25,305 bases of DNA, taken from IMG/VR virus record IMGVR_UViG_3300008266_000920, positions 1 through 25,305 of that record; one strand, 5' to 3'. Positions 2 to 24,265 of this stretch are shown in pieces; position 1 is the stretch's first letter, and every line of letters starts with the position of its first letter. Below the pieces are notes generated by a model. That model made no database searches, was not told where the DNA came from, and saw only the letters and a list, made by a program, of their open reading frames with translations. Position numbers and translations under genes: made by a program. This DNA is from a virus.

Positions 2-973
2 TTGCTTGACAGCGAGATTGAGAAGTCAGAAAACGCCAGTTACGTTGAATCGCAACTTGCCAAAGGCGTAGAGAAAGCTATTAAAGAAGCGTCTGAGTCC
101 CGTGGCTTTGGCGCACAGATGGCTGACGTACCTATTGAGCCTTTAAGTTCTGCTGAACGTGAAACAATAGAGGCTAGAAATAAAGCGCAGTTAGAAGATT
201 TCCAAGCAAGCACAGCTAGGTTGCAGGCTTTGTCCGGTCAGCGTATTGACTTTAGCAAGCGTCGTGAGATGTTGGAGTTGATTAAGGCTGCCACAAAAGA
301 CTTTGCAGAGTTAGCCGCACGCATTAAAGAGATGGAAGAGGGTGTGTTGGAAATGCAGGTTCGTGTTGAACTTGTACAAATTAAACTAGACGAAGCAACC
401 GAAAAGGCTGCGTCCTACCGTGGCCCACGCAAGAACCTCAAAGAAGCCAAAGCGTTGTTTGCCCAGATCGAAGACTTTAAGAAACAAATTGAAGCGGGTA
501 ACAAGCGCGTCGAGACACTGCAAAACTCTATTGTTGACTACGAGAAGTCAACAATCACCAAACAAAAAGCATTGTTAGAAGCCCAACGCGCTACGTCTAG
601 CGACCCAGAAGTCTACGCAGAAGTTACAAAACTGATTGACGATCGTATTGCCAAGCTTGAGAAAACCATTTCCAAAAAGCAAGAAGCCGTCAACAAAGCA
701 GAAGAAGCTATTGCCAAGCTGAGTAGAGATATTAAAGCTAAGAAGCTGGCATGGGCAGAAGGCAAAGCAACGCCTGAAACTTTGAAGAACATGAAGGAAC
801 GGTTGGCTGCGCTGCGGTCTTCTCAGAAAGAACGCCGTAAGCGTTTTAATGAGTTCCTCAAAGAACGCGAAGTGTTGCAAGCACGCAAATCAAACCGCCT
901 GGGGATTACCCGTACAGATGTTTTGACTGGGCAAAATGTGGGTACGCTGGTTACAAATACAAGAACAGATTGA
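2..973 (+). CDS. Polyvalent virion protein, N-terminal part (5' end outside window)
   Basis: The frame is open from the window edge, so the true start lies upstream and the TTG at base 2 is not a credible start. The visible 323 residues are almost entirely charged helix rich in Lys, Glu, Ala and Gln with heptad-like spacing, as in long coiled coils. No catalytic motif is seen. The frame stops at TGA 971-973, inside the first codons of the next frame (936-6041), whose opening residues have the same charged helical composition. I infer that both are one polypeptide split by a one-base difference; see the finding on the frame break. Such helical N-terminal parts are common in giant phage polyvalent proteins that are packaged in the head and ejected with the DNA. 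The alternative is a genuinely separate gene with a 38-base overlap, but there is no good ribosome site before the ATG at 936. Confidence 0.7.
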   Translation: MLDSEIEKSENASYVESQLAKGVEKAIKEASESRGFGAQMADVPIEPLSSAERETIEARNKAQLEDFQASTARLQALSGQRIDFSKRREMLELIKAATKDFAELAARIKEMEEGVLEMQVRVELVQIKLDEATEKAASYRGPRKNLKEAKALFAQIEDFKKQIEAGNKRVETLQNSIVDYEKSTITKQKALLEAQRATSSDPEVYAEVTKLIDDRIAKLEKTISKKQEAVNKAEEAIAKLSRDIKAKKLAWAEGKATPETLKNMKERLAALRSSQKERRKRFNEFLKEREVLQARKSNRLGITRTDVLTGQNVGTLVTNTRTD

Positions 974-3900
974 CGCCGAGAACGAGCGTGCAGCAATGTA
1001 CGACTATCGTTTTAGTGGGTTGCAAGACTTAGAGAAACAAATGGCGGGCTTAAGCGCAACGCCAGAGCCTAAGACAGCAAAGGCCAAAGAAAACCGCGCT
1101 GAGAGAATTCGTGCACTACAAGAAAAAATCAATCAACAAATTGATTTAGTCAACGAGGTGCTCCCGCCTAAACAAGAGAAGATTTCGCAGGCTACGCGTG
1201 TGCAGTCAGGCGCCCCAAGCAAATTGCGTGGTGGCACAGAGCAGTCAAAAGCAAACGTTGGTATTACTAAACAGCCTATTGTTGAAAGCCGCACACCTGC
1301 ACCAATTACATCCGAGAAAGCAGTGGCCGATGCCAATGCGTTTGCCGAGCGTATTGCTGCAGCCAAAGACAAAACAACACTGGACGCAGAGTTCAAAGCC
1401 AAAGAGTTTGAACAGCAGAACCAGATTCTCGATGCGATGGAAGACAACCGAGTACGTCTAACCAAGTTTATAAACAGAAGCCAAGACGAGCTTGCAGAAA
1501 TTGGGGAAGTACTATCGGGTAACCCAACGCTGGCAGACCGCAGAGATAAACTGAAAGAGGATATAGAGTCCGCACAGTTTATGTTGGATCGCGTTGGCGA
1601 CGATATCAACCGCCTATTGAAAGAGCAGATCGTTCCGTATACATCTGAAGATTTTACTCAGTTGTCTGGCACAGAGTTTTCTAAAGTTTCTGACGAGGAT
1701 ATCGACACTACGTACGACCCACGCTATGAGTTTTCTCGCGGCGCGGCTAAAAACGGGTTGAGTGTTGAAGGTCTACAGAAAGAAATTGACACTGCGCTGG
1801 GCGGGGCGGGGCTTACCAAAGGCCGCATTGAGATATTCAACAGTGTAGAAGAGTTTTTAGACAGCAACAGCTTTTCGGATTTGCAATACGAGTACAACAT
1901 AAAACGAGCCAAAGCACCAGAAGCCCGCGACATCCCAACAGACGCTAAAGCTTTTGTTGATCCAAGAACTGGCAAAGCGTTTATGTTTGCCAACAATATA
2001 GACAAGGGCGACGGCTTAGGAATATTGCTGCACGAAGTCGGTGTTCACCTTGGCTTTAAAAACTTGTTTAATGCTGGGCAGTACAAGAACCTAGTAAAAG
2101 CTGTTCAAAACTGGTCTAAGCTAAACGACAACTCTATAGAATCTAGGGTTGCTAAAGCAGCGCTTGCTCGTGTTAAGTCTGCACAAACATCCAAAGAACA
2201 GTTTGACGACGAGTTATTGGCATACGCTGTTGAGGAAGCAATTAAAGCAGGCGTCAAACCTGCAGCCCTTGGTTCCAAAGGTTCGCCTATTGCAAACTGG
2301 TTGCGCATGGTTGTGGATACTTTAAAACGGGCACTGTCTGCGTTTGGTATCAACCCTAAAAACCTCAAAGCCGGGGAGTTGGTAAACCTTGCGTATGGTG
2401 CTGCACAACTTGAAATTCGCGGCACATGGCACGGCTCAGATGCAAAGTTTAAAGCGTTTGATACCGGTTACGCTGGCTCAGGAGAAGGCGCTTTTGATTT
2501 AAGGTTCTTGGCAGAAGAGTCTTTGGGCGAAGGGCCCTACACTACACCGCAAAAAGAATACGCCGAGTATTACAGGCAAGCAGTGCCTTATGGCAAAGCC
2601 GCAAACGAAACTGGGTATGGAAACAAAACGTACCAAGACTACCGCAGCCTTGACAATAAATTTATAAACACACAACACGACGAGTTGACAACAGCAATGC
2701 TGCAGTCAAAACTAGAATCCGGGTTGTTGTCTGCTTACGTAAACAGTGCTTTGAACGACGGGACACTGCTTGACCCGACAAAGAATGCAGGCGCTAAAAA
2801 ATATATTGAAAATAAAACACTGTTTGTTGAAAGAGAAATTGAAACCGCACAAACAGCGCTTGATAGGGCTGTAATCTCTGAGGCAAAAAAACCTAGCAGT
2901 GCAACTCGAATTCCCAACTTGGAAAAACATCTTGCCAAACGAGAAAAAGAATTAGAGATATTAAAGTCGCTTGATCTGTCCAAGATTAAACCACTTACAA
3001 AACGCCCTGCCATAGGCAACATGTACCGCACTTTGGATGACGTGCCTCGTGAGCGTGTCTATTCCGTTAATTCAACGTTTACATTTGGCGAGCGCCCTAA
3101 ACTAGACGCGTTGATGAAAAAGTACGGCGACAAAAGACTGCAGGACAGAGCCAAGAAAGATGGTGAATACGAAGCTAATGGTTTGTTCTACGACATGCGT
3201 AGACAGCTTGGGATAAAAAAACTTACAGAAATACTTAAAGCTGCCGGTATTGATGCGATTGAGCAGAACAACGAGCGCGGTAGATACATTGAACGAGCTT
3301 TTATTGACAACACGCCTGAAATTATTGGCGTCAATATGGAACCTGTCGGCCAGTCCGAAGGCTTGCTGTTCTCACGTAAGGCACAGTACGGGCAAGACGA
3401 TGCGTTGACTAGCCTGTCTAAGCAGATCATTGCACAGCCTAAATCTTTCAGTGAACGCCTTGGTAGAAACATGGCACTTGAGACCGAGATGAACTTGGTT
3501 GATATGCGTGCTGGATTGCGTGAAGCATTGAAAGCTGGCGCTAAAGAAATGGGCGACACCAAGAACTTTGTGCAAGCAATGTACAGCGTCACCAAGTCTG
3601 ACCAGAAGATGGCTATCGTAAGCTCCACGCTGATGGAAGGGCCGATGGAGTTGTACACAGACGACAAGGGCTTCCACGGCATCAGGTCTACAGGTGGTAA
3701 CAGCGCCAAGGATGTCTTTGACGCCATAGGGCGCATCCCGGGCGGCAACGCCAGAGGCCGTGTTGACCTTGCCACTACGTACATGATTGCACAACGTGCG
3801 GCTAACAAAGGTTTGTCTAAGCTTGATGTGGGTGCACTAGGTGTAACCGAGGCAGAACTTAAAGCTGCAATGGCTGACGTTAACGCCAACCCCCAACTAA

Positions 3901-6041
3901 AAAATGCTTTGGAAGTTGTGCGTAGTACATACAACGCATACAACGCGGGCTTGATTAAGTTCTTGGCTTCAACTGGCGCAATCACCAAGGCGGATGCAGC
4001 CAAGCTGCTCAAAGACGGTGACTATGTTCCGTTCTACCGCATTCGTGAAAACGGAATGGCTGATCTTGTCTTTAGTGACGAAGTGACTATCAACATCGGC
4101 GATGTTAGATACCAGCCCTACTTGGCGGAACTTAAAGGGGGCGAGACCCGCATCCTTCCCTTGACCGAGTCGTTGCCGCGCAACACACTGCTCATCACAG
4201 ACAAAGCGCTGACAAATCTTGCAGCCCGCAATGTGGGCTACGCGTTCCAAGCAATTGGTGCGGGCAAAGGCCCCGTGGACAAAGAAGGCAAGATAACCAA
4301 CGCCATGCCAATCCACAAAGGGAAAGGCCCGGCGGGTGCAGACATTATTCGCTTTAACCAAGAGCCAGACCCTGCCGATCCTAAAGACAAGGGCGACCGC
4401 CGGGTACGCGTTAAGACCGATGACACCATCATGGGCGGTATTCCTGCCGAGTTGATTGTGAAGAGTTTGGAAGGCGCTCACTTGACGCTTCCTGCGTTCT
4501 TAAAAATTGGTGGTATTGCCGGCGACATCTTGCGCTCTGGCGTGACCCGCATGCCAATCTATATTGCGCGGCAGTTAATTCGTGACCCGATGGCCGCATC
4601 GTTTACAGGCGGTTTAAACTACAACCCTTTAACAGCGGTTGTTAAAGCTACCACTGAGTTTGTGCGTATGACTCGCGGTACAAGCAAGGCAGGCGAAGAG
4701 CTCATCAAGCGTGGTTTAGTTCAAAGTGGCATTTTTACAGGAGACCCAGACGACATTTCTAAGATGGCGCTCCAGTTGGCGGGTAACCAACAAGGTGCTG
4801 TTGACCAGTTGTTTGCTACGATGGACAGAGCCGCTATGCGTGCCGATGCTTCCACCCGTGCACTGGTGTTTGACAACGCTCGTAAGAACGGATTGTCTGA
4901 AGTCGAGGCTGACTTGGCCACGATGGAGTCCATGAACTTCTACAAGCGCGGTTTGTCACCCACAGTGCAGTACGCCAGCCGACTGATCCCGTTCTTTAAC
5001 GCGCAGATCCAAGGCTTGAACGTGCTGTACAAAGCCGCCACAGGTCAAATGCCGTTTGAGGAACAGCAAAAGATCAAGCAGAAGTTCTTTAACAACGCCA
5101 TGTTGTTGGTGGGCGTCGGTGTGGTTTACGCCATGGCTATGGAAGACGACGAAGCTTTCAAACGAGCTAAGCCAAAGGACAAGTACAGCAACTTCTTTAT
5201 TCCTGTGCCGGGCGTTGAAGAGCCGTTTAAGCTGCCTATTCCCTATGAGGCTGGTTGGTTCTTCTCGTTGGCTGTTGCCGCAGTAGACGCTATGAAAGCG
5301 GAGACGGATGGCAAGCAACAGTTTGACGCACTGCGCGATATGTTCTTGATGTCGATCCCCGGCTACTCGTCTAAGTTTATGCCGCAGATTATCAAGCCTG
5401 CGTTTGAGGTTTACAGCAACAAGAACTTCTACACAGGTAGCGACATCGAGTCTCAACGCATGCAAGATAAGACGGTGGCGGAGCGCTTCAATATAAGCAC
5501 GACCGAAGCCGCCAAATCTATGAGCAAAATGTTGCCTATGCTGTCGCCCATACAGATTGAGCACATCTCTAACGGCTACTTTGGTCAGCTACCGCTGATT
5601 ATTGCGGCTGCAGCCAACGGCTTGTTCCGCAAGGAAACGCAAGGCGACGCCCCAGAGAAGCGCATCACAGACCTGCCGTTTATTGGTAGCTCGTTCCAGA
5701 AAAAATATGGCGGTGCTGATGCTGATGTGGTGTACCGCATAGCCAAGGAGTCTAAGCAAGCTAAAGACACGTACGACAGCATGCTCAAGCAAGGCCGTGT
5801 AGCAGACGCTAGAGAGTTCTTGGCTGACAACCGCACAGAGATTGTGTCGGCAGGCATAGCTAACCAGTACCGCACACAGATGGGTCGACTGCGTGCAGAC
5901 GAAGAGCGGATTACAGGTATGGCGGGTCTGTCAGGGGAAGAAAAGCGCAAGCGTATCGACCGAATCAACGATGCTCGGCAGGCTATATCTGAGAAGTTCG
6001 AGGCGGCTATTAAACGGATTGAGGCTTCCGGTAAAACATAA
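936..6041 (+). CDS. Giant polyvalent protein: zincin-like motif, ADP-ribosyltransferase-like domain, LPD38-type C-terminus
   Basis: This 1701-residue frame is probably the continuation of the frame ending at 973. From the N-terminus it shows charged coiled coil to about residue 300. Next comes a metallopeptidase-like HEVGVH (about 366-371), fitting the HExxH zincin pattern. An ADP-ribosyltransferase-like segment begins at GTWHGS (about 495) and ends near the LLFSRKAQ stretch (about 805-815), as in the ART-PolyVal family, with a helical insert. A conserved YVPFYR stretch follows. From about 1195 a long alpha-helical region resembles large polyvalent protein domain 38, including one hydrophobic segment near 1387-1403. 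Known relatives sit in phage virions and are thought to enter the host with the DNA, where they alter the envelope or host proteins. The domain calls are by motif and gestalt. The ATG at 936 lacks a Shine-Dalgarno sequence, so it may not be a real start. The gene ends just before a convergent gene boundary. Confidence 0.8.
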   Translation: MWVRWLQIQEQIDAENERAAMYDYRFSGLQDLEKQMAGLSATPEPKTAKAKENRAERIRALQEKINQQIDLVNEVLPPKQEKISQATRVQSGAPSKLRGGTEQSKANVGITKQPIVESRTPAPITSEKAVADANAFAERIAAAKDKTTLDAEFKAKEFEQQNQILDAMEDNRVRLTKFINRSQDELAEIGEVLSGNPTLADRRDKLKEDIESAQFMLDRVGDDINRLLKEQIVPYTSEDFTQLSGTEFSKVSDEDIDTTYDPRYEFSRGAAKNGLSVEGLQKEIDTALGGAGLTKGRIEIFNSVEEFLDSNSFSDLQYEYNIKRAKAPEARDIPTDAKAFVDPRTGKAFMFANNIDKGDGLGILLHEVGVHLGFKNLFNAGQYKNLVKAVQNWSKLNDNSIESRVAKAALARVKSAQTSKEQFDDELLAYAVEEAIKAGVKPAALGSKGSPIANWLRMVVDTLKRALSAFGINPKNLKAGELVNLAYGAAQLEIRGTWHGSDAKFKAFDTGYAGSGEGAFDLRFLAEESLGEGPYTTPQKEYAEYYRQAVPYGKAANETGYGNKTYQDYRSLDNKFINTQHDELTTAMLQSKLESGLLSAYVNSALNDGTLLDPTKNAGAKKYIENKTLFVEREIETAQTALDRAVISEAKKPSSATRIPNLEKHLAKREKELEILKSLDLSKIKPLTKRPAIGNMYRTLDDVPRERVYSVNSTFTFGERPKLDALMKKYGDKRLQDRAKKDGEYEANGLFYDMRRQLGIKKLTEILKAAGIDAIEQNNERGRYIERAFIDNTPEIIGVNMEPVGQSEGLLFSRKAQYGQDDALTSLSKQIIAQPKSFSERLGRNMALETEMNLVDMRAGLREALKAGAKEMGDTKNFVQAMYSVTKSDQKMAIVSSTLMEGPMELYTDDKGFHGIRSTGGNSAKDVFDAIGRIPGGNARGRVDLATTYMIAQRAANKGLSKLDVGALGVTEAELKAAMADVNANPQLKNALEVVRSTYNAYNAGLIKFLASTGAITKADAAKLLKDGDYVPFYRIRENGMADLVFSDEVTINIGDVRYQPYLAELKGGETRILPLTESLPRNTLLITDKALTNLAARNVGYAFQAIGAGKGPVDKEGKITNAMPIHKGKGPAGADIIRFNQEPDPADPKDKGDRRVRVKTDDTIMGGIPAELIVKSLEGAHLTLPAFLKIGGIAGDILRSGVTRMPIYIARQLIRDPMAASFTGGLNYNPLTAVVKATTEFVRMTRGTSKAGEELIKRGLVQSGIFTGDPDDISKMALQLAGNQQGAVDQLFATMDRAAMRADASTRALVFDNARKNGLSEVEADLATMESMNFYKRGLSPTVQYASRLIPFFNAQIQGLNVLYKAATGQMPFEEQQKIKQKFFNNAMLLVGVGVVYAMAMEDDEAFKRAKPKDKYSNFFIPVPGVEEPFKLPIPYEAGWFFSLAVAAVDAMKAETDGKQQFDALRDMFLMSIPGYSSKFMPQIIKPAFEVYSNKNFYTGSDIESQRMQDKTVAERFNISTTEAAKSMSKMLPMLSPIQIEHISNGYFGQLPLIIAAAANGLFRKETQGDAPEKRITDLPFIGSSFQKKYGGADADVVYRIAKESKQAKDTYDSMLKQGRVADAREFLADNRTEIVSAGIANQYRTQMGRLRADEERITGMAGLSGEEKRKRIDRINDARQAISEKFEAAIKRIEASGKT

Positions 6042-17174: not shown

Positions 17175-17200
17175 TCTTTGTTGAACAGTGTGTCACTCAT
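17171..17200 (-). CDS. Nine-codon minigene joining two overlapping genes
   Basis: The frame ATG-AGT-GAC to GAA-TGA encodes MSDTLFNKE. Its start overlaps the stop of the 151-aa gene (ATGA) and its stop overlaps the start of the 37-aa gene (ATGA). A weak GAGGT site lies upstream. It may only pass ribosomes along; a function for the peptide is not claimed. Confidence 0.35.
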   Translation of the reverse strand: MSDTLFNKE

Positions 17201-17652
17201 ACTCTTACCTCAGCCCTTTCAATATCACGAGTTTTAAGTTCATTGTCCAGTTGCACAATCAGATCAGCGATGTCTGAATCAATCAGGTGCAGCTTCTTAG
17301 TCCAACGTGCAATGGTCAGTTGGATGTCGTGCAGAAACTCCTCCTTCATATCAGCATCACCCATCACATGGGCAACCATGCGGTAGCCACCACCAGACTC
17401 ACGATCAGATGGCAAGCTGATGAATGCGCGGACTTGCGTAGGGGTACTGTCCAACACAACAATCTTACACTTCTGAATCAGTGATCTGGCCTGCTCTCTG
17501 CGGTACTGCTTAGCCGCTTCGCTGTCGTCCCATTCAAAATGGCGGTGCAAGATGTTGTCTTCATCTTTAGCCGCCTCAAGTACGTGATCGATCATCAGCA
17601 CGCCGTTATGCTGGCGTGCCATGTCTTCTAAATACTTGCGCTCTTCATTCAT
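17197..17652 (-). CDS. Conserved phage protein, 151 aa, unknown function
   Basis: AAGGAG precedes the ATG at 17652 with good spacing. The protein has ILHRHFEWDDSEAAKQYRREQAR (written here in part) around residues 34-56, a VRAFISLPSDR segment near 78-88 followed by GGGYR, and a helical C-terminal half. I recall this sequence type from other phages, without an assigned role; no enzyme motif is clear. It is the first gene downstream of the pentamer array. If transcription comes from the right, its mRNA carries the array as a leader unless the RNA is cut or started in between. Confidence 0.8.
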   Translation of the reverse strand: MNEERKYLEDMARQHNGVLMIDHVLEAAKDEDNILHRHFEWDDSEAAKQYRREQARSLIQKCKIVVLDSTPTQVRAFISLPSDRESGGGYRMVAHVMGDADMKEEFLHDIQLTIARWTKKLHLIDSDIADLIVQLDNELKTRDIERAEVRV

Positions 17653-17677: not shown

Positions 17678-18300
17678 GCCTGCATTGCCCTGCCACGCCA
17701 TGTCTAATCGAGCCATGCCTGCCTTACCTTGCTGTACCACGCCACGCCTGACTGCGCCTCGCCTCGCCTAGCCTGCCTTGCTATACCTGTCCAGACCCAA
17801 CCGGATCGAACCTTGCCTCGCCTAGCCTTGCCTGCCGTACCTCGCCCATCCCTGCCTCACGTCGCCTTTCCGCGCCTAGCCTGCCGTGCTAAACCACACC
17901 TTACCAAGCCGAGCCTGACCGCGCCGATCAGCGCCTATCCATGCCTGCCTAACCACGCCAGACCATGCCCATCCAGTCCTCGCCTCGCCGTGCCGTGCCA
18001 TGCCTGCCTTGCCGAGCCAAACCGGTCGCTACCAAGCCCCGCCATAACGAGCCGTGCCTGCCTTACCTTGCCAAACCGGGCCTAACCGCGCCCCGCCCTA
18101 CGACGCCACGCCATGCCAAGCCTGCCGTGCCATACCGAACCAAGCTCCGCCACACCGCGCCTCACCAAGACACTCCGCGCCTGCCATGCCAAACCGGGCC
18201 CGACCGCTCCTAGCCAATCCCGGCCACGCCTGCCGTGCTCAGCCACACCATACCGCGCCAAGCCAAGCCGTAACGAACCGCTACGCACCTAGCCTGCCGC
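17678..18300. repeat. Degenerate pentamer array (RCCNN) with GCCT tetramer resets
   Basis: This stretch has no credible gene. Read on the + strand it parses completely into pentamers of consensus RCCNN (NNGGY on the - strand). Position 2 is almost always C, position 3 mostly C, and positions 4-5 are free. Twelve times a pentamer is replaced by the tetramer GCCT followed by GC, giving GCCTGC(C) at 17678, 17717, 17771, 17830, 17879, 17943, 18002, 18056, 18120, 18179, 18228 and 18292. The distances are 39, 54, 59, 49, 64, 59, 54, 64, 59, 49 and 64 bases, always 4 more than a multiple of 5, so units hold 7-12 pentamers plus one tetramer. The array lies between the 223-aa and 151-aa genes, both read leftward, so RNA from the operon would carry G-rich GGYNN repeats. 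It could be a structured RNA, a protein-binding DNA tract or an origin. Confidence 0.92.
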
Positions 18301-18310
18301 AGTGTTCAGC

Positions 18311-18982
18311 TTACTGGATACTGAACTTGGCTCTAATAGCCTCAATGTCATCGGTCTTCACAACTTGGAACAAACCGAACCCACAGCCGGCGCTAGCCTT
18401 ACTGTCGGGTCTGCCTGCTCCAATTCCTACTTGTAAGCCACAACGACTCACAAGGTTGACCACATCAATGGTCTTGAACTGATCCATGTCAAAGCGTACA
18501 CGAAGCTTTGCCGCCCAATCTTTATACATCGGACGCGAGCGTACATCTACTACGCCCGTTGCATTTCTTGTGTGCGCTGTATACACATCACTCTTGCCGT
18601 AGATACGCACCAGAGGCACGCCATCTTGCTTGTCCCAACCATCTGCTTCCACAAATGTCGAGAGCTTTGCAAGCGTCATCTTAAACCCAACCAAGCGACA
18701 GGCTGAGATCATGGCGGCACGAAACGCGGCGGCGTTCACACCCTCCCACTCTTCAAGACTGCGGTATCTTGCGTCTTCTGCTTCTCTGTCGTAGTCACGG
18801 GCTTCACGCACCTTCTTGCTCTTGGCGGACGGCCCCTCCTGCATCTTAGCCATCAGTTCAGCTTTCTTGCTGAAGCGCTCAACTACTAGCGGTGCAATGC
18901 CTTGAAGGTACAAGTCTACAGTCGCAAACTTGGGCGGTGAAATTACGTACGTTGTTTCTTGTTGTGTATTCTTGGTAGCCAT
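18311..18982 (-). CDS. RAMP-like (Cas7/Csm3-type) protein, tentative; 223 aa
   Basis: AAGGAG precedes the ATG at 18982. The order of elements recalls a RAMP fold: a strand plus APLVVERF near the N-terminus; a charged linker; GVNAAAFRAAMISACRLVG (about 80-98), like the G-I-P-x-S-x-(R/K)-G-A helix of RAMPs; strands around VRIYGKSDVY; FDMDQFKTIDVVNLV; and a glycine-rich GIGAGRPDSKASAGCGFGLF loop close to the C-terminus, like the G-x-G-x-x-R-S-x-G-x-G-x loop that touches RNA. This is resemblance by eye, not a proven match. No other CRISPR genes are present. A phage recombination or unknown protein is the alternative. The gene ends 10 bases before the pentamer array. Confidence 0.75.
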   Translation of the reverse strand: MATKNTQQETTYVISPPKFATVDLYLQGIAPLVVERFSKKAELMAKMQEGPSAKSKKVREARDYDREAEDARYRSLEEWEGVNAAAFRAAMISACRLVGFKMTLAKLSTFVEADGWDKQDGVPLVRIYGKSDVYTAHTRNATGVVDVRSRPMYKDWAAKLRVRFDMDQFKTIDVVNLVSRCGLQVGIGAGRPDSKASAGCGFGLFQVVKTDDIEAIRAKFSIQ

Positions 18983-22174: not shown

Positions 22175-24265
22175 TTAAGCAGGCTGATGCTCAGACACTA
22201 CATACGAGCAATGAGACATCGTGTCGGCAAATGACTCGTTCATGATCACCCACAGATCGTCGACACGCATATACACGACATCACCGCTGTTGATGGTGTC
22301 CATATCGCCGTATGGGAAGAACGCATACTCAGAGCCTGAGTACAGAGCGAAGCGGAAGTACAGATCGTTACGCCTTGCCCATGTCCTGATGTGCTCAGCC
22401 TCGATGTCGTAGGGTATTTGCATCGGGTAGTCATGCTCATGCCTGAACTCCGTATACTCGGGTTGCCATGGGGTAGATGGCACAGGAGGCACAGCGTCAG
22501 AGCAAGTGTCCTGCGCTGGTGCAATGACTGTCGGTGTGGATGTATGTACTTGACGTACGCCATACCACTTGACTAGCGCAGGGTACTGACCCGCCACAGT
22601 CTTGAGCCACTTGACGAACGATGTGCCGTTGAGATCACGCCACGATGCGACACGGCAGAACATGACAGACGCATGAGTGAACTCGATCTGTGCAAGCAGA
22701 CGTTCCTTCTTGAGCGAAGCACGGAAGATGCGTAGCTCGACTGTGTTGTACTTGCCGTTGTAGCTGTTGTCCATGCTAAGACCAAGACGCTGTGCCTCAC
22801 GACCACCGAGGTTGCACATGTTGACCATGCGATAGCGCTCACCAGACTTGCCCTTGACAGCCTTCTTGGGGTTGGTAAGGATGGACTGATGCTCTGCTGC
22901 ACAGTAGCTACGTGCTTGGTCATCGACAGATGGATGACGACCTGCAATCTTGCGAATGAAGTCAACGTTGCCATTGCTGTTGATGAACATCAAGAACTTG
23001 CCAAGCGTCAACTGCGTGAAGGCACGAGAGTCAATGTGTACATGCATACCGCACTTGCCTGTGTTCCATGCACGATAGGCAGGGTCGATCTCCCACGTCT
23101 TGAACTTCTCGATGTGAGTAGCCAAGCCATGCGGAGAAGTCACAACCTCGAAGCCATTTGAGGGTAGCGAGCCGTCACTCTTGATGATGCAGTATGAGGA
23201 ACCAAGACGGCTACGCACAGACTCAGCGGCTGAATCAGCGTAGCTCTCACCCGATGTCATCTCAAGTTCGATGCCCATGGTGAACTCACCGAAGTGAGAC
23301 GACTTGATACCCGACTCATTGCCAAGCACATTAAGGACATTGGTAGAGTACGACATGATCGGCTGATCGCTGTCGTCTTCATCATCCTCGTTGTCGTCAT
23401 CGCTGTCACGATCGTACGTGTAGTACGCATCACGAACCTCAGAGTAGAACGCATCGTCACGAGGCCAGTACTCACCATTGTCCTCGCAGTACACAGCGTC
23501 ATCATCGAAGCACGACTCACACCACGTATCGTTACGCACATCGTGCGTATTGTGCTGGTCTTCATAGTGACCGCAGTCGCAATGCACAATGCCTAGATCC
23601 ATATCACTAACAGCCTCAAACGCATTCTCAATATGACCAGTGGAATCGCTGTAACGACTCGACAAGTCATAGAACGCAGTGCTTAGCTGGTCATCGGTAA
23701 CGGACTCATCACCCGCCTTGGCACGAGCAACGAGATGACCGAAGTGTTGGAACGAACTACGCACAAGCCCGAACACATCTGGGTTGTAGCAGTGAGTGCC
23801 CTTGAACTCAGCGTGAGGGCTGGGAGTGTGAACCCCATACGCACTAGGATCATGCTTGCGTGCAAAAGCATCAACGGCAAAATCAATACGATTAGCTATC
23901 GTGCCACGCATAAGCCGAGGCATATCCGACAAGCTGTTGGGTGTCAGAAGCCTGCGCATCATCTGATGTATGTCGTAACGATCGCGAGTGTCATCACAAG
24001 CCTGCTTGTACGTAACCATATGAGGCGCAAACAGAGCATCCTCACCTCTGACACGATAGCGTGAGGTACGAGTCCACAGCGCAAGGTTGTCGTTGGTAAG
24101 CAGATCAAGCGGTGACTTGAAGGCTGCTTGGATAGGATCAGATACTGTTAGACGTCTGCGAGACCCGTTGTATACCATGTACCGATTGTTAAGGGACACG
24201 ATAAACATTGTGAAGACTGCGGAGTCGATGAAGTCTTCGATATCGAACTTAGTGAATTGAAACAT
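22175..24265 (-). CDS. Putative amidoligase (COOH-NH2 ligase, glutamine synthetase-like fold) with zinc-finger-like insert
   Basis: The C-terminal half has the marks of the Amidoligase_2 family: GIELEM (331-336) with paired glutamates for metal/ATP, KSDGSL then GFEVVTSP, CGMHVHI (405-411), and ELRIFR (510-515). Family members join a carboxyl group to an amine with ATP. Before this lies a cysteine cluster (C229, C231, C249, C252, C260) that may bind zinc, then an Asp-rich linker near residues 290-306. The first 220 residues and the last 130 are not recognised. AAGGAG precedes the ATG at 24265. The next gene supplies a glutamine amidotransferase-like domain, so ammonia from glutamine may be the amine donor. 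The substrate is unknown; cell-wall peptides or a protein tag are candidates. Hairpins bracket the gene. Confidence 0.82.
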   Translation of the reverse strand: MFQFTKFDIEDFIDSAVFTMFIVSLNNRYMVYNGSRRRLTVSDPIQAAFKSPLDLLTNDNLALWTRTSRYRVRGEDALFAPHMVTYKQACDDTRDRYDIHQMMRRLLTPNSLSDMPRLMRGTIANRIDFAVDAFARKHDPSAYGVHTPSPHAEFKGTHCYNPDVFGLVRSSFQHFGHLVARAKAGDESVTDDQLSTAFYDLSSRYSDSTGHIENAFEAVSDMDLGIVHCDCGHYEDQHNTHDVRNDTWCESCFDDDAVYCEDNGEYWPRDDAFYSEVRDAYYTYDRDSDDDNEDDEDDSDQPIMSYSTNVLNVLGNESGIKSSHFGEFTMGIELEMTSGESYADSAAESVRSRLGSSYCIIKSDGSLPSNGFEVVTSPHGLATHIEKFKTWEIDPAYRAWNTGKCGMHVHIDSRAFTQLTLGKFLMFINSNGNVDFIRKIAGRHPSVDDQARSYCAAEHQSILTNPKKAVKGKSGERYRMVNMCNLGGREAQRLGLSMDNSYNGKYNTVELRIFRASLKKERLLAQIEFTHASVMFCRVASWRDLNGTSFVKWLKTVAGQYPALVKWYGVRQVHTSTPTVIAPAQDTCSDAVPPVPSTPWQPEYTEFRHEHDYPMQIPYDIEAEHIRTWARRNDLYFRFALYSGSEYAFFPYGDMDTINSGDVVYMRVDDLWVIMNESFADTMSHCSYVVSEHQPA

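Follow-up and report, generated by a model that had tools for sequence, protein, structure and literature searches.

A pentamer array with one-base-short junctions beside a vipr gene: a probable guide-RNA array of a phage-borne VIPR system

Results

Organization of the locus

The DNA analysed here, referred to as the window, comprises the 25,305 nucleotides (positions 1 to 25,305) of the IMG/VR virus record IMGVR_UViG_3300008266_000920. An array of short repeats occupies the gap between two minus-strand genes at 17197-17652 and 18311-18982. The features of the locus are listed below, NN denoting the variable pair of bases in each repeat; every guide lies between two resets, and the assignment as guides is a prediction whose grounds are given in the following sections.

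17197..17652, minus strand: putative vipr-accessory (vap-like) gene, 151 aa, phrog_15946, conserved partner of vipr
17678..18300, minus strand: putative vrRNA array with 11 guides and 127 anchors, between vipr and the partner gene and on the same strand
17682..17716, minus strand: guide 1 (7 NN), plus-strand reading TT CT AC AT TA GA AT, between resets 17678 and 17717
17721..17770, minus strand: guide 2 (10 NN)
17775..17829, minus strand: guide 3 (11 NN)
17834..17878, minus strand: guide 4 (9 NN), with an internal CCTGCC that is in frame and not a reset
17883..17942, minus strand: guide 5 (12 NN)
17947..18001, minus strand: guide 6 (11 NN)
18006..18055, minus strand: guide 7 (10 NN)
18060..18119, minus strand: guide 8 (12 NN)
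18124..18178, minus strand: guide 9 (11 NN)
18183..18227, minus strand: guide 10 (9 NN), predicted target tyrosine integrase motif (M)NGRAYNRT, 18/18 match to L279:5301-5326
18228..18231, minus strand: reset, guide border (plus strand GCCT; RNA GGC-A-GGC), one of 12 resets
18232..18291, minus strand: guide 11 (12 NN)
18311..18982, minus strand: vipr gene, 223 aa RAMP-family protein (phrog_4652), assigned by PDB profile, fold and alignment

Elsewhere, the window encodes a large polyvalent phage protein of 1701 aa that contains an LPD38 domain (936-6041) and a putative amidoligase-domain protein (Amidoligase_2; 22175-24265). A scan of the window proteins against Pfam recognised no cas family, TRF found no CRISPR-like array in the window, an Rfam scan returned no match, and the result of a promoter and terminator scan was no better than that of shuffles.

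Structure of the array

The array was subjected to a Viterbi parse in which the step from one RCC anchor to the next could be 3 to 10 bases long. This placed 127 anchors (17678 to 18296), separated by 114 steps of five bases and 12 of four, with no other step length. The parse score was 322, compared with a mean of 15.5 (s.d. 4.8, maximum 32.5) for 100 dinucleotide-preserving shuffles. The view of an initial annotation that the array is not simple low-complexity DNA is borne out. The four-base steps, termed resets, begin at 17678, 17717, 17771, 17830, 17879, 17943, 18002, 18056, 18120, 18179, 18228 and 18292. The 11 intervals given in that annotation (39, 54, 59, 49, 64, 59, 54, 64, 59, 49, 64) were reproduced exactly, as was the tetramer GCCT followed by GC at 12 of 12 resets (GCCTGCC 11 times, GCCTGCA once). 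Its statement that all 620 bases parse into RCCNN pentamers goes too far: RCC is perfect in 100 of the 127 anchors and deviates in the other 27, and is thus a strong consensus and not an absolute rule. The first anchor base is G in 80, A in 35 and T in 12 cases, the second is C in 120 and the third is C in 116.

The same annotation put the chance of all intervals equalling 4 modulo 5 at about once in 5 to the 10th. This estimate is circular, because a parse into pentamers and tetramers forces every interval to 5k+4. The informative facts are that the slip is always -1, that a single slip sequence, GCCT/GC, is used 12 times out of 12, and that the arrangement recurs across many unrelated phages. 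The RNA sense of the array is the minus strand, which reads (NNGGY)n with GGCAGGC at every slip. The units do not repeat one another, and a strong GC skew extends across this intergenic array.

The flanking genes

PHROGs gives no function for phrog_4652 or phrog_15946. A profile of phrog_4652 relatives produced one good match in the PDB, namely the Vipr protein of SUSP1 (36pp_D, E 5.9e-13), and SUSP1 Vipr was in turn recovered by the window family HMM at E 2e-21. Identity between the two proteins is 23%, with the RP..W and G-loop residues conserved. When the window protein was modelled with AlphaFold2 (pLDDT 91), the best Foldseek matches were Csm3/Cas7-type CRISPR RAMPs (E 4e-5), and the glycine-rich loop GIGxGRP...GxF is conserved. 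The gene thus agrees with the vipr of a VIPR system, which encodes a RAMP homologue with an RRM core and a glycine-rich loop.

VIPR was described in a 2026 preprint (PMC13142463). It presents Vipr as an early-branching RAMP and the vrRNAs as composed of GGY/NN repeats, 9-16 in each RNA. According to the same preprint, the NN pairs recognise DNA with one base skipped per pair, the targets lie in phages, the outcome is transcriptional repression, and the guides of SUSP1, a type II VIPR system, carry structured 3' tails (PMC13142463; PDB 36pp).

The second flanking gene, phrog_15946, is a conserved partner beside vipr according to neighbour counts and tblastn records. Its product yielded a confident predicted model, yet no fold match in a PDB search, and the phrog_15946 profile did not recover vap1 at the SUSP1 locus. 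A reset-type array at L049:4788-5261 is accompanied by a vap1-like gene instead of phrog_15946 (weak match to SUSP1 vap1, E 4e-5), and the array at L139:6699-7178, also with a vap1-like partner, groups with it. As these two arrays pair with a vap1-like gene, the form of an array does not strictly determine which accessory gene accompanies it.

Distribution of the array class

Similar arrays, with the same pentamers and on inspection the same GCCTGCC resets, were found by blastn in mycobacteriophages of the genus Cheoctovirus and in Gordonia phages. A degenerate pattern with one reset gave at least 120 matches in IMG/VR and 74 stretches in bacterial genomes of many phyla. Searches by tblastn with Vipr and with the phrog_15946 protein each hit 33 of 50,697 phage records, with identical make-up (27 Mycobacterium, 5 Gordonia, 1 cyanophage). 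A relative of either flanking protein was located at most 400 nt from 155 of 207 arrays and always on the GGY strand; arrays without such a neighbour were mostly loci in which that gene was missing from the fetched DNA, many of them at contig ends. The DNA polymerases of isolate phages share only about 30% identity with that of the window phage.

The initial annotation had proposed to look elsewhere for the same rule and for conserved neighbours, and both recur in other phages. It had also named sister phages without the tetramer rule as evidence against its claim. Resets were present in all seven arrays reached via the protein and not via the DNA pattern, and, together with three obtained earlier, a reset array stands beside vipr in 10 of 10 isolate phages, whereas SUSP1, the distant founding member, has no resets.

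Some pooled loci were low-complexity false positives (e.g. L128) and were taken out before guide scoring. GCCTGCC dominates the pooled four-base steps, neighbouring resets are most often separated by 8 to 11 five-base steps, and units of 7-12 NN account for 69% of pooled units. Among 818 pooled junctions in RNA sense, GGCAGGC occurred 655 times and GGCAGGT 57 times. The logo of these junctions showed GG at 89-97% and NN at about 0.00-0.1 bits away from the junction, and the junction A at 95%. The constraint on frame, junction and unit size that had been claimed for the window is a real one. In the NN pair flanking the reset on either side, the first base in RNA sense was A in 45-50% and C in only 5-7% of the 818 junctions.

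The cyanophage Cy-LDV1 (L281) carries reset arrays on both sides of its phrog_15946 gene (4621-4815 and 5413-5573), and the adjoining Vipr is 53% identical to that of the window. Paired arrays about 500-1000 bp apart are also present in L143, L145, L163 and L176.

Reading code and guide borders

Guide scoring covered 1039 units bounded by resets, which were compared with 1.6 Mb of fetched DNA, with the arrays masked and a cut-off of E<0.01. Matches were obtained for 18 guides when one base was skipped per pair, compared with two guides at skip 0, four at skip 2 and two at skip 3, and the same trend was seen in two more sets, comprising 80 loci with a Sak4-like annealase gene and 120 loci selected by integrase. 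The skip-1 code is hereby confirmed on 1039 guides of this array class.

For 14 guides, the target match inside the resets was at least 90%, and all but one had no more than 2 mismatched letters in 16-24. Pairs just past the reset of the same guides matched at 18-30% for every junction offset tried, with 25% expected by chance. Given that matching is high inside the resets and at chance level beyond them, the reset is the end of reading, and the tetramer is a border between guides. An apparent excess for reading across resets with 0-5 junction bases came mainly from the excluded low-complexity locus L128; past the resets, matching was at chance.

Comparison of related mycobacteriophages revealed that whole guides are gained and lost. 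Exactly two reset-bounded units of the Donkeykong array (L002) are absent from Pippy (L284), and exactly one unit of the BobaPhett array (L287) is absent from ByChance (L285), the other units being nearly unchanged in both cases. The proposal that GCCTGCC is a boundary holds; target matching ends there. Of the copying process that had been suggested to use this boundary, the gain and loss of whole units stands, but the rule is not about copying as such. In the mycobacteriophage arrays (L002, L004, L284-L287), the middle guides differ between phages, but the first and last segments show little or no change; these end segments may be leader- or tail-like.

Predicted targets

The predicted targets of guides of this class are phage genes, namely those for Sak4 annealase, the vipr of other phages, primase, helicase loader, DNA methyltransferase, a P63C/antirepressor-like protein and integrase. 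Guides of L020 and of L145 each have about 60 zero-mismatch matches in the 80 Sak4-like annealase loci, and a guide of L040 has 14 matches there. The Sak4-like annealase gene of a single phage group (L034:754-1010, L199-L278) is matched at several conserved motifs by guides of at least five different VIPR phages. The guide at L197:5979 has zero-mismatch matches in 11 other loci, and those checked lie in vipr genes; VIPR systems appear to aim at each other.

Within the window, guide 10 reads ATxAAxGGxCGxGCxTAxAAxCGxAC. Its sole full match in IMG/VR (18/18) lies in the tyrosine integrase gene of L279; this match keeps the codon frame, its skip bases coincide with wobble positions, and the peptide is MNGRAYNRT. 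When the first pair was omitted, the remaining 8 NN matched at least 120 IMG/VR contigs; among the matches listed, 98 are homologous integrases, and 102 of the 120 listed are in the sense codon frame. Guide 10 is therefore predicted to be aimed at the tyrosine integrases of temperate phages. That its match is a coincidence is improbable, even if about one chance match per 18-base pattern may arise in IMG/VR, where only a single full match was found and where guide 4 also gave one. Against coincidence, 8 of the 9 pairs match a conserved motif that at least 98 integrase genes contain, a scrambled order of these dinucleotides matched 4 contigs, and a guide of another VIPR phage (L040) has an 18/20 match to the same integrases.

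A target was predicted for one of the 11 window guides; the scans run gave none for the other ten. The single IMG/VR match of guide 4 is out of codon register and was judged to be due to chance. No exact IMG/VR match was found for guide 8 with 11 of its 12 pairs or for guide 9, and neither had a match in 369 genomes at up to 2 mismatches; guide 11 had no match in three genomes. Against the 80 Sak4 loci and the 120 integrase-selected loci, guide 10 was the only window guide with matches.

Discussion

On these findings we assign the window array, with a probability of roughly 95%, to a phage-borne VIPR system, for which it would supply 11 guide RNAs. Rather than defining a new repeat class, the array belongs to one that was described very recently: the initial annotation knew of no named class with this rule, whereas the vrRNAs of VIPR (PMC13142463) already had both the pentamer rule and a name. 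Tandem YNNGG repeats with conserved GGY and hypervariable NN, as described for vrRNAs, are found in the window as well as in the pooled logo. With 7-12 NN per unit, the repeat number largely agrees with that of known vrRNAs, 9 of 11 units reaching at least nine when junction triplets are counted, although the low end is slightly short. Furthermore, targets are read with one base skipped, and in the integrase match of guide 10 the skipped base falls on the codon wobble, both in line with VIPR.

By analogy with other members, the minus-strand transcript would carry GGY triplets held by Vipr subunits, and the NN pairs between them would read the DNA target, skipping one base per pair that usually falls on the codon wobble position. 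The two bases per pentamer that were initially regarded as free are indeed variable, but they are not idle and would constitute the message. GGC-A-GGC, one base short, would close one guide and open the next; since this junction separates guides, the array comprises eleven guides, each with 7 to 12 NN pairs. Once loaded, the Vipr complex would be expected to bind genes in rival phages and prophages and to silence them. We infer RNA binding, DNA binding and repression by the window system from experiments with other members in PMC13142463, and the presumed transcription, cutting into single guides, loading onto Vipr and use in silencing rest on the same work.

The window system resembles the type II VIPR of SUSP1 in its Vipr RAMP, in a GGY/NN RNA on the vipr strand, in the one-base skip, and in targets that lie in rival phages, other VIPR systems included. 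It differs in that SUSP1 has separate, tailed vrRNAs without a GGCAGGC junction and vap1 as accessory gene, whereas the window has 11 abutting guides in one array and phrog_15946 as partner. A structured 3' tail, which is a feature of type II and not of VIPR as a whole, was not found between the window units, where only the one-base junction is present and Rfam gave no match. The "staggered arrays with overlapping vrRNAs" mentioned in the preprint (PMC13142463, fig. S18) are probably the same architecture, i.e. dense arrays with a shifted register; an overlap of the reading parts is unsupported by the target matches of the class studied here. The RAMPs of type III and type I CRISPR systems (Csm3, Cas7) are similar to the predicted fold of the window Vipr, but the five-base periodicity and non-contiguous reading of the window are unlike a contiguous CRISPR spacer.

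We give about even odds to a packed, tail-free VIPR array in which the single missing base in GGC-A-GGC is the only separator of guides, ends the reading, allows whole guides to be exchanged and may mark where the precursor is cut or where a Vipr filament ends. A possible but more doubtful account is that the array belongs to VIPR but the resets are not RNA ends, so that overlapping vrRNAs run across them and, for example, use the next unit as a tail. This would agree with the mention of staggered arrays and with the mature SUSP1 RNAs of about 100 nt in PMC13142463, which are longer than the 45-60 nt units found here. On the other hand, target matching halts at the reset on both sides, and related phages gain or lose exact reset-to-reset units, although the RNA molecule may still exceed its reading part.

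The remaining explanations place the array outside VIPR altogether. Binding sites of TRAP (mtrB) consist of triplets with two-base spacers, each unit holding about 11 of them. The GGY triplets with 2-nt spacers, with a mode of about 9-11 per unit, bring such sites to mind, and a TRAP-like ring protein might thus bind about 11 triplets per ring, the array being a regulatory RNA or sponge. However, the TRAP sites belong to a different protein, the conserved neighbour here is a RAMP, and the spacers hold target information, which renders this explanation highly unlikely. A sponge for tRNA-Gly(GCC), suggested by GGY plus 2 nt, was dropped on the same grounds of a RAMP neighbour and informative spacers. 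It is just as far-fetched to regard the array as a structural or replication element of the DNA (iterons, origin, phased curvature): the strong GC skew and intergenic position would suit it, but the fixed orientation to vipr, the skip-1 target matches and the near-zero information of NN speak against it. Selection on DNA spacing, as proposed initially, is likewise rejected in favour of an array that encodes guide RNAs for the adjoining Vipr protein. Finally, low-complexity sequence or a repeat collapsed by misassembly, conceivable for a virus record of metagenomic type, is scarcely credible given the same architecture in complete Mycobacterium, Gordonia and cyanobacterial phage genomes and given units that are not mutual repeats.

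What is new in the present study is the tetramer as a guide border, the confirmation of the skip-1 code on 1039 guides, and the finding that arrays of this class accompany vipr in numerous viral contigs, in bacterial genomes from many phyla and in each of the 10 isolate phages inspected. Also new are the decoding of window guide 10 to the integrase motif NGRAYNRT in codon frame and the gain and loss of whole guides between related phages. With about a thousand natural guides, drawn from many phages, the analysis provides an independent check of a recently published reading code. As the guide border is readable from sequence alone, it becomes possible to decode the VIPR guides of such arrays and to predict what they target. 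Testable targets are thereby named, i.e. the integrase for the window phage and the Sak4 annealase and vipr itself for others, and the system is placed in phage isolates from Mycobacterium smegmatis and Gordonia which are already in laboratories.
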